Assembly (NCBI RefSeq): GCF_019649055.1 | Contig: NW_026570238.1 | Coordinates: 1,488,001-1,552,000 of the forward strand | DNA length: 64,000 nt | Reading direction: 5' to 3' | Source: Paramacrobiotus metropolitanus | Taxonomy: Eukaryota; Tardigrada; Eutardigrada; Parachela; Macrobiotidae | In this document: in pieces, positions 20,632 to 25,528 of the stretch | How the letters are laid out: each line of letters begins with the position of its first letter | Position numbering within the stretch: the stretch's first letter is position 1 | Program-made: the position numbers and the translations under genes | Notes under the pieces: model-generated | Seen by the model: the letters and a program-made list of their open reading frames with translations, nothing else | What the model was told of the DNA's origin: nothing | The model's database searches: none

Positions 20632-21359
20632 ATCCTTTATAATAAAAGATTAAGAGGGGGCGTGATCAGTGTGTCTGTCAAATCCCCCAGAATCGCAGAG
20701 TGGATCAATATTCAACATTTACGGATCATTCGATAGCGCTGATTTCGTAGATGAGCCCGCAACTTTCGGATTTCAAAAAACAAACATCGTTTGAGAGAAA
20801 ACTGTAAAAAACCCTATCATACAAAGTCTACGGAACCCCAACACAACCAATCAGCGAAGACTTAAAGTAACTGCCTTGCTGCAGAGCTTGCGCGGGTTAT
20901 ATCGTGAAACAAAATTCGAAAAATTTTGTTTGTTTTGATGTATTTGGTCTGCAATGGCTTTAAGAAACATTATATTAACAGCGGTGGGTTTAAGGATCCT
21001 TTATAATAAAAGATTAAGAGGGGGCGTGATCAGTGTGTCTGTCAAATCCCCCAGAATCGCAGAGTGGATCAATATTCAACATTTACGGATCATTCGATAG
21101 CGCTGATTTCGTAGATGAGCCCGCAACTTTCGGATTTCAAAAAACAAACATCGTTTGAGAGAAAACTGTAAAAAACCCTATCATACAAAGTCTACGGAAC
21201 CCCAACACAACCAATCAGCGAAGACTTAAAGTAACTGCCTTGCTGCAGAGCTTGCGCGGGTTATATCGTGAAACAAAATTCGAAAAATTTTGTTTGTTTT
21301 GATGTATTTGGTCTGCAATGGCTTTAAGAAACATTATATTAACAGCGGTGGGTTTAAGG
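20632..21359. repeat. Perfect 364-bp tandem duplication
   Basis: Bases 20632-20995 are followed immediately by a copy at 20996-21359. I compared them line by line and found no difference. The unit begins ATCCTTTATAATAAAAGATT and ends GGTGGGTTTAAGG. It has no coding frame of note. Perfect identity means a very recent duplication, active homogenisation, or an assembly artefact. Confidence 0.9.
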
Positions 21360-21867
21360 ATAATAAAAATTTAGGCACAAGAAAGATTTAAGTTATTTTG
21401 ACAACCGAACGCACAAACGACCCAGGGAACTTAGGGAAGTGTCCCAAGTGAGAGCTGCATGCGTCGCGAATCTTGCTGGCAGCCTGGCAGTACCAATTAT
21501 CAAGTAGCTGCGGGATGACGGTGGCTGCTTGATACTTAGGTAAAAGGCAGTGTTTTGCGGTAGTTTTAACCTAATCATTTCTCTGTTGACACTGTTTCTT
21601 TAGTTTCGTATTATACCGATGAAAGACGGTATTTTTAAAATTAGTAATGAAAAACGGATATTTACAGAAGGCGAAACGGAGCTGCTGCGCGAGCGGAGCT
21701 CGCTAAGCAGGAGGAGCAGCAATCAAGTGAGACATCGTTTGGCAGTTTTTTTCTTACAGTTTATCAGCCAGCTCTGCAAGACTGCAACAATTGAACCTTT
21801 TATAGTTAGTTAAGTATTAAGTAGTTAGTTGGTGTGGGATTGCCACTTGCCGCTGGAAAAAAATCAC

Positions 21868-22330
21868 TTACCGTAATTATCGAATTTGCACCCCTGGGGT
21901 GCAAAAGTTCAAACGTCCTGGAGTAGGGGATCTTATTTCGGAGAGGAGGCGTTATTTCTGGGGTGGTACTATTTTTCAAACGGTATTTTTCAGAAGTGGA
22001 CGTTTATTTTCAAACAACTGCGCATTCTGTTCCATTGAAAATGAACGCAGTAGATACCGGTGTTTGCAGTTTCAGAACCTTACGAGCAGCATTCTGAAGC
22101 ATAGCACCGAATTATTTTTGTGACCGTTTACTGTTTATTAATTACATCATAGCAGTTATTATGAAGCAATTGGCCTTATATCTATCATTTCGTGGCGCTT
22201 AACATTTAATAACACCCCATGGGAGGCAGATTCGGGAGGAGCTATTTTTCAAACGGGTTATGGGAGGGGCTTACTTATTACGGATAGTGCCTTATTATGC
22301 GGGGAGGTGCAAATTCGATAATTACGGTAA
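21868..22330. mobile_element. MITE with 22-bp terminal inverted repeats, Tc1/mariner-like
   Basis: The left end at 21871-21892 (CCGTAATTATCG...) is the exact reverse complement of 22306-22327, and both ends are flanked by TA, the target duplication typical of the Tc1/mariner/pogo group. Including the flanks the match extends over 25 bases. The interior (about 415 bases) has repeated TTTTTCAAACGG motifs and a perfect inner palindrome at 21888-21902, but no transposase. It is therefore a non-autonomous element that would need a transposase from elsewhere. Confidence 0.8.
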
Positions 22331-22926
22331 TTCGGTAATAACTTAGTTTTTGTCAGCGAAGTTAACTGTATTAGCAAATGCGCTAATTTTTATTTTAACT
22401 GCATTTATCATCAGGCAGCAGTCGATTTCCTCTGCGCACTTTGCGCGGTGTCAGCCATACTACCGTAGAAGTATAGGTAATTTTACCAGTACACTTGCAA
22501 GTTGCAACACATAATCGAATTTAAAATATAGAATTTGTAATTATGATCCGTATTCTTCCTATTAGTACAGTATCTCAATCATAATTTGAGTCTTAGAGCA
22601 GCCTGTATATAACGTAAATTATTTGTAGCTGATTTGTTCCGCGCAGTTTGCGCGGGGTCTACTAGTAATATTATAAGGATCATGAGGTTCTACAGATCTG
22701 TCGTCGATTTACTTACATACGTAGTACGTACCTACTTCGTCAGAAGTATTTTTAAACTTTGTCTTTATCGTCGAACAGGTGACCAGAAAGTGGGATGAAT
22801 TTATTAAACTAAGCCGTTTTATACTCATGATATATCTCATCCATACAATATACAAAGTACATCTGTGTGCTTTTGATTTTCCGATTCTCATTTGTCACTT
22901 GTGTTCGGCAAACAGTTTGCCGCAAA

Positions 22927-24420
22927 CTCCTGACCAGACCTGGGCAGTTATAACTTAACTCATAACTTAACGCGAGTAATTTTCGAGTTATCGAGTTATA
23001 ACGTAACTCTGAAGCGTAACTCGCTAGAAAGAAAACTTAACTCTAACGTAACTCGAAAACAATTTAACGCAACGTAACTGTAGCGTAACTCTGTCGTTTC
23101 AAGTTACTAATAAAATCATTAGCTCAAAAGTATAGAAAATACGAGTATTAAAATGGAAATTATTTTCGACTTGGGTTGCACTGACTTTCGGTACTTCTAC
23201 TAGCAGGCACAAATAAAACAGTTCCAGCTGTTGTAGTACACGACGACCGCCATAGGCACTGGCCACCATGGTTTTTTATCGGTTTTATACTGACGTCTGT
23301 GCGATGTGCATTAATCGAATATTAGCGGCGTCCGCCAGTACACTGCATTCCAGTCGAGTCTTTCGGCTACGAAAAATATGTGTGTCAACTGTGCTGCGGA
23401 CTAGGTAGCCCCTGCAGGTTCGGTATTTTTCGAAAGCCGTTTTGTTTTGTAACTTTCGTTCAACCGTTTTGTAACTTTGTAACTTGTAACTTTCGTTTTG
23501 TAACTTTCGTTTTGTAAAACTTTCGTTTTGTAAAAACGTTTTGTAACTTTCGTTTTGTAAAAACGTTTTGTAACTTTCGTTTTGTAAAAACGTTTTGTAA
23601 CTTTCGTTCAACCTGTGCAGGCTATAGCATAAAAAAAAAGCAAAACAAAATCTTGAAGAGAGCAGAAAGTTTCCAAGTAAAAAGATTTCGAAGGAACGAG
23701 ATCTCAGATATTAATTGCTTTTCATAAACTGATTGCGCTTAGCATACAAGCTTATGGCAAACTGCCCCATAGAGGAGTATGCCAAACAGAAAAAGCGTAA
23801 TATCTCGTTTCTCCTTAAACTTTTATTTACAAACTTTCGATTTTCCACAATGAAGAACTTTTCTGCACTTTTTAGCTATAGTGTGAACAGACTGAATGTG
23901 ACTGAAGACTTTCTAGAGGGACGTATCACATACGTTTCAGTGCTATTTAAATAATGTAATACAGTAAACAACTTTCGGTTAAATATGCAAACAGTGAAGC
24001 GAAAAGCAATATTTTCAAATCTGACGCAGCACCCGTGGGTGAAATGCACTAACGAGAACTTCTTCATATCACCCGAGCGTGCATTTGCTTCTCAGTTCGC
24101 ACACTCACTTTAAAAAATACTAAAGAGCTTTCCTGGCATGTAGAGGGGCATATGCTGTACGGATGGGAATTTTAAGAATCAGCTATTTTGCAGAATTAAT
24201 TACGATCTGTGTTGCAAATCTGATAATAGTAATACCGGTAAGAGATTACTTGAAAATTATTGACAAAGTAAAGATTTTTTATTGTAGCGTAACTCGCGTT
24301 ATAACTCATAACTCCAGTTAATTTGAATAGCGTAACTCGTAGCGTAACTCGCGCGCTGCAGTTAACTCGCAACTCTAACTATGGGTCAAATTTCCATAAC
24401 TGCCCAGGTCTGCTCCTGAC
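22927..24420. mobile_element. Non-autonomous hAT transposon, 1478 bp, with target duplication
   Basis: The element runs from 22935 to 24412. Its 17-base terminal inverted repeats, CAGACCTGGGCAGTTAT at 22935-22951 and the reverse complement at 24396-24412, are perfect. The flanking 8-base sequence CTCCTGAC occurs at 22927-22934 and again at 24413-24420. An 8-base target duplication and ends starting CAG with a TGGGC core are hallmarks of the hAT superfamily. Subterminal regions are packed with GTAACTCG-like motifs, typical transposase-binding repeats of this group. No hAT transposase frame or BED finger is present, so the copy is non-autonomous. It sits 138 bases upstream of the BOLA1 start codon. 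Confidence 0.92.
23443..23611. repeat. 27-bp minisatellite inside the hAT element
   Basis: The sequence repeats a 27-base unit (CGTTTTGTAACTTT followed by CGTTTTGTAAAAA) about three times perfectly, with degenerate half-units to the left. Because 27 is a multiple of three, the minus strand is open and reads a 9-residue repeat ESYKTFLQN; this frame is most likely a by-product of the repeat rather than a gene. Confidence 0.85.
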
Positions 24421-24550
24421 GATATTTAACGACGCAGACTTGTATAAGTAATATCACACTTCGTAGACTGACGACATCACACAACTATCTAATTCCCACG
24501 ATTATCTTCTGTCTGCTCGTGTAAATTGCTGAACATTTGCAGATATTTTC

Positions 24551-24991
24551 ATGGTGTTCGCCTGCATTGCCCGTCCTGTATTGGGTTCGCTGGGTCGGAT
24601 TTCTCTCTCTAATTTGAGAATAAGTAGAATGTGTTCGCTAGCGGATACCAGTGGTGTGAACGTGGAGGAACTGTTGACTACGAAACTCCGGAGCCAGTTA
24701 TCTCCAGAATTCCTGCAAGTGATCAACGAGAGCTACATGCATAATGTGCCAAAAGGCGCTCAAAGCCATTTCAAAGTGATTGTGGTATCCGATCAGTTCA
24801 AAGGCCAGTCGCTTATCAATCGGCACAGATCCGTGCAAGATATTCTCAAAGAGGAAATCGCCAACTACATCCATGCCATCACCATAACTGCGAAAACGCC
24901 GGAAGAATGGGCTAAAACGGATGCGGCGACGCTGAAGAGCCCACCTTGCTTGGGAGGAATGAAAAGTGAAATGAAAAACTCTGGGAACTAG
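24551..24991 (+). CDS. BOLA1: BolA-like protein 1
   Basis: BOLA1 works with glutaredoxin 5 in mitochondrial iron-sulfur cluster and thiol redox handling. The single coding exon gives 146 residues. The core from NESYMHNVPKGAQSHFKVIV through RHRSVQDILKEEI follows the BolA fold, and the C-terminal SPPCLGG motif matches animal BOLA1 specifically, not BOLA2 or BOLA3. The first 30 residues are basic and hydrophobic with no acids until the core, consistent with import into mitochondria. An AG acceptor just before the ATG (24540) suggests an upstream untranslated exon. The hAT transposon lies directly upstream. Confidence 0.92.
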   Translation: MVFACIARPVLGSLGRISLSNLRISRMCSLADTSGVNVEELLTTKLRSQLSPEFLQVINESYMHNVPKGAQSHFKVIVVSDQFKGQSLINRHRSVQDILKEEIANYIHAITITAKTPEEWAKTDAATLKSPPCLGGMKSEMKNSGN

Positions 24992-25528
24992 TTTGTTTCG
25001 GGAGCTGTTCAGTTTTCGAGGTTGTTTGGAGCACCGCGTAATTACCCGATAATCGTGATTCAAGCAACTCGGACATTGGATTGTTTTGATGACAGTACTT
25101 TTATTACGTCTACTCGCACTTATCCGTTTTTTACTTATTTAAGTTGCGGCTAAATTGTAGATCCATTTACGCCACGACGCGTTCATTATCAGCAATTAGT
25201 AATTACGAATTCGCAATCTCCGATCATTCAATAAAATCGTTATGGAGATGGATTGCAGTTTGCTTGCTATTCATTCAGATATAGAATTTCACTTCACATA
25301 CAATCAGCAAAAACAAAATAAAATATACAAATCAAGGAAATAAAATTTGGAAAAATATATTAACAGTAGATCGTCAAGATTGGTCTGTCCGAGTACAAAT
25401 CACATTTGTAGGCACTTAAACATCAAAAGTAAAAAACGAGGCAATAAACCAGCATGTTGACAAAGAATCGATCACAAAAGTATTTGAGCGAAAATTTCAA
25501 AATAAATAAAAACTCTTCAAAACCAGTG
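24992..25528. other. Tail-to-tail region between BOLA1 and ZFYVE26
   Basis: Shared 3' region of two convergent genes. AATAAA at 25230-25235 is the probable BOLA1 polyadenylation signal. The A-rich stretch at 25310-25350 and 25495-25515 contains further AATAAA-like words. No gene is seen. Confidence 0.5.

Follow-up and report, generated by a model that had tools for sequence, protein, structure and literature searches.

What is the repetitive sequence that lies directly in front of a BOLA1-like gene in this tardigrade DNA, how did it arise, and does it bear on the gene? An earlier note on the window (the whole stretch of 64,000 nucleotides analysed here) had proposed a recently inserted hAT element. 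We conclude, with a probability of about 0.96, that it belongs to a family of hAT DNA transposons, as a non-autonomous copy that was internally deleted and then recomposed. Its features, in window coordinates, are as follows.

22927-22934 (no strand): left target site duplication, CTCCTGAC
22935-24412 (+, the transposase strand): non-autonomous hAT element, 1478 bp
22935-22951 (+): left terminal inverted repeat, CAGACCTGGGCAGTTAT
22935-23282 (+): 5' part in common with a transposase-bearing 4443-bp copy (86%)
22956-23091 (+): left subterminal TAACTC/GTAACTC repeats
23361-24153 (-): degenerate copy of an unrelated inverted-repeat element of ~620 bp, ~69% identical, interrupted by the minisatellite
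23465-23608 (no strand): minisatellite of 14- and 27-bp units in the element centre
24144-24257 (+): 38-residue remnant of a hAT transposase C-terminus (G000:C18:1512144-1512257)
24156-24412 (+): 3' part in common with the transposase-bearing copy (87%)
24289-24368 (+): right subterminal TAACTC/GTAACTC repeats, in the left-hand orientation
24396-24412 (-): right terminal inverted repeat
24413-24420 (no strand): right target site duplication, CTCCTGAC
24551-24991 (+): BOLA1-like open reading frame of 146 aa, a neighbouring gene outside the element (Pfam BolA)

The boundaries of the element were sharply defined. The right 17-bp terminal repeat is the exact reverse complement of the left, and the 8-bp target site duplication is perfect on both sides, as the earlier note had stated. 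Across the whole window, ten pairs of perfect inverted 17-mers lie no more than 6 kb apart; the hAT element is the one pair of the ten with an exact flanking 8-bp duplication. The note's claim of dense subterminal repeats at both ends was likewise borne out, in the form of TAACTC-type direct repeats. On the + strand, the element holds 12 of the 21 TAACTC motifs in the window, seven of the ten GTAACTC motifs and five of the six occurrences of GTAACTCG. All subterminal repeats lie within ~190 bp of an element end and have the same orientation at both ends, except for two GAGTTA motifs near the left end. No long open reading frame was found inside the element, where the transposase remnant of 38 aa is the only coding trace, and an Rfam search of the window gave no matches.

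A search of the 169.8-Mb genome for sister copies, which the earlier note had suggested as a check, recovered the exact 17-base end 121 times, against zero occurrences of a reversed-pattern control. A DNA search with the element returned at least 67 matching pieces. The lack of other copies, named in the note as a result that would speak against its reading, was thus not what we found. Among 28 copies examined from end to end, the shortest measured 208 bp and the longest 4443 bp; copies of 281 bp were frequent, and others formed a class of 1.1–1.8 kb. Perfect 8-bp duplications flank 23 of the 28, and nearly all of them differ from each other. When these 23 duplications were oriented with the element, T occupied position 2 in 22 and A occupied position 7 in 18, which matches nTnnnnAn, the target preference of Hermes (PMC10368747). 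A literature search for the end sequence CAGACCTGGGCA retrieved unrelated papers only. The copies constitute a new hAT family, of a known kind. At one locus (L022:396-4790), the hAT left end occurs twice in direct orientation, 4.2 kb apart, and a right end and duplication are present only for the first.

Paralogous empty sites were found for three sister copies in total. For the 281-bp copy at C1 (L077), a paralogous repeat in L057 carries a single GACAGAAC, as read in the alignment. The left flank of the 1162-bp copy at C18:1380077 (L082) is a repeat with a 97% copy at C182, and C182 matches the joined flanks unbroken at 99%. For the 281-bp copy at C85 (L087), the joined flanks have contiguous matches of ~85–88% in many repeat copies. 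For the BOLA1 copy, no empty site was found in this genome. The only genome match of its right flank (24421-25450) is the flank itself; on the left, another repeat reaches to ~22677, and single-copy sequence begins there. One apparent empty site, a match in L022 across the joined flanks of that locus, was discarded because it proved to be the right end of the element.

These data bear on whether the structure is a transposon at all, or instead an inverted repeat that is degenerate or due to chance, or else a piece of a segmental duplication. Nothing beyond the absent empty site at BOLA1 speaks for such a non-transposon origin, whereas copies elsewhere in the genome are flanked by 8-bp duplications that mostly differ from site to site, and sister copies have paralogous empty sites. 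We rejected a chance origin on the 121 ends against none in the control, on the site-specific duplications and on the uniqueness of the duplication-flanked pair in the window, and regard the probability of any such non-transposon origin as negligible.

The assignment of this transposon family to hAT draws on a 4443-bp copy at C210:20153-24595 (locus L021), whose ends are identical to those of the window element and whose duplication is GTTCCTTG/GTTCCTTG. This copy contains exon-like stretches with splice-like borders. Its last exon, L021:706-1089(-), encodes the hAT dimerisation domain Dimer_Tnp_hAT (PF05699, Pfam E 6.9e-13). A middle exon matched Hermes transposase structure chains at E ~4e-4 to 6.8e-4 and had no Pfam match, and the first exon shows, by eye, a zinc-finger-like Cys/His pattern, also with no Pfam match. 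These two exons bear, respectively, on the RNase-H-like catalytic core with its DDE residues and on the N-terminal BED zinc finger of hAT transposases. In the Pfam search, the exons other than the last gave no matches, so that only the C-terminal domain passed the cut-off. Because the reading frame of the last exon seems to change twice, the copy is probably defective. The earlier note had also proposed looking for an autonomous hAT copy; a transposase-bearing copy with the same ends does exist, but it is apparently frameshifted. A second transposase-bearing place, C135, encodes relatives at 84% and 79%. Within the transposase-bearing copy, an inverted pair around CTTGTCCGGTAATTTC / GAAATTACCGGACAAG (L021:3070-3270) is perhaps a nested small element.

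The first 348 bp and the last 257 bp of the window copy match the L021 copy at 86–87%, and the 38-residue piece at 24144-24257 is 74% identical to the L021 transposase (E 5.4e-9). Since the terminal parts match and this remnant survives, sequence comparison indicates that the two copies are related by descent. Duplications of 8–9 bp are also made by some superfamilies other than hAT, such as Mutator-like, P and Merlin elements, and on that ground the element might be assigned to one of these. The hAT domain in a relative with the same ends, the match to Hermes, the remnant inside the window copy and the nTnnnnAn target pattern refute this assignment, to which we give a probability only just above that of a chance structure. 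The hAT identity given in the earlier note is upheld by the same evidence.

Between its hAT-derived ends, the window copy has a centre of sequence other than hAT. Located there is the degenerate copy, with its outer left end missing, of the separate ~620-bp element, which has inverted ends of ~32 bp (ATATGCCCCTTACCTATGCCCCGACAGCTTTT) and occurs alone elsewhere, at C96, C125, C119, C67, C47 and other places. Members of this inverted-repeat family at L063, L064, L066, L067 and L069 (e.g. L064:1499-2127) have a partly palindromic interior, and their target duplication is not cleanly defined at the loci read. The same centre as in the window copy is present in four other hAT copies (L023, L024, L025 and L027). 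Judging from their flanks, the composite was mobilised as a whole, because three of these four sisters have their own duplications; L023 has no matching one.

A plausible history of the non-autonomous hAT element can be proposed from these relationships. In an ancestral element encoding a hAT transposase, most of the coding part would have been lost, and the centre would have acquired the unrelated inverted-repeat element and the minisatellite. The resulting composite would have kept both ends, with the 17-bp inverted repeats and the subterminal repeats, and could then have been moved in trans by a transposase of the family cutting at these ends. An 8-bp staggered site, 130 bp ahead of the BOLA1 start codon, would have received the insertion and been duplicated as CTCCTGAC. 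We infer that the composite moved in trans and that the events followed this order.

The divergence between composite copies supports recent movement. The nearest sister, at C191, differs by 15 substitutions over 1449 aligned bases (K2P 1.0%), and the next, at C5, by 3.5%, which suggests recent activity; further composite sisters at C5 and C88 stand at ~19%. The earlier note had dated the insertion as recent from its undecayed ends. Recency stands, on the sister at 1.0% and the perfect duplication, but the intact ends cannot serve as the sole dating argument, because the 17-mer is exact at 121 places and is kept in copies that differ by ~19% overall.

The BolA reading frame starts with an ATG at 24551 (Pfam BolA E 1.3e-28), so that, as first reported, 138 bases separate the last base of the element from the start codon; 130 separate the second target duplication from that codon. 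This position is the one point in favour of the idea that the element was co-opted by BOLA1 as a source of promoter, enhancer or 5' UTR sequence. Against it, a TATA-like TATAAG, identified by eye as a possible core promoter, lies between element and gene at 24443-24448, and hence the BOLA1 core promoter could be entirely separate from the element. Moreover, the copy is young and its sequence is common to copies elsewhere. We therefore consider co-option unlikely, and find it somewhat more doubtful still that the young composite hAT element, with its inverted-repeat element and minisatellite, is now part of the BOLA1 regulatory region. The ordinary reading is that the insertion, although close to the promoter, is neutral, and neither supplies nor disrupts promoter sequence as the earlier note had thought it may. 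Further upstream, the adjoining repeat at 20632-22677 is an element of ~1.7 kb that is bounded by ATCCTTTATAATA / TATTATAAGGAT and is present elsewhere in at least ten copies of 93–99.7% identity. In its window copy, a 364-bp unit is perfectly duplicated in tandem (20632-21361); this unit is single in four of five copies compared.

Tardigrade transposons are thinly curated (PMC11071193). The analysis yields a well-defined tardigrade hAT family, characterised by its ends, its target pattern, non-autonomous copies in several size classes and a transposase-bearing relative. Repeat annotation can make use of it, and it may offer a natural marker of recent mobility. The family leaves general understanding unchanged: the element is real, fairly young and ordinary.

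Its 17-bp terminal inverted repeats fall within the range of ~10–25 bp given for hAT elements (PMC3942097). Like the Hermes, hobo and Ac group, the family combines 17-bp inverted ends and many short subterminal repeats with 8-bp duplications of the nTnnnnAn pattern, and a copy sharing these ends has coding sequence for the hAT dimerisation domain at the C-terminus, along with a Hermes-like exon. The subterminal motif is (G)TAACTC here and AAGT/AAGC in Hermes (PMC10368747), and, as a further difference, the window copy encodes no complete transposase of its own. Placement in the Ac group is based on the match to Hermes together with the target pattern, rather than on a tree. Close parallels are also found in hAT-derived MITEs such as Mar and BuT2-MITEs of Drosophila, and in maize Ds (PMC3517528, PMC3942097, PMC3260210). 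These, too, are non-autonomous: internal deletion or rearrangement has left them with the termini of a relative that encodes a transposase, and each is flanked by an 8-bp duplication of its own. Unlike these, the family described here includes a longer subfamily (1.1–1.5 kb) whose core consists of a minisatellite and a degenerate inverted-repeat element of unrelated origin.
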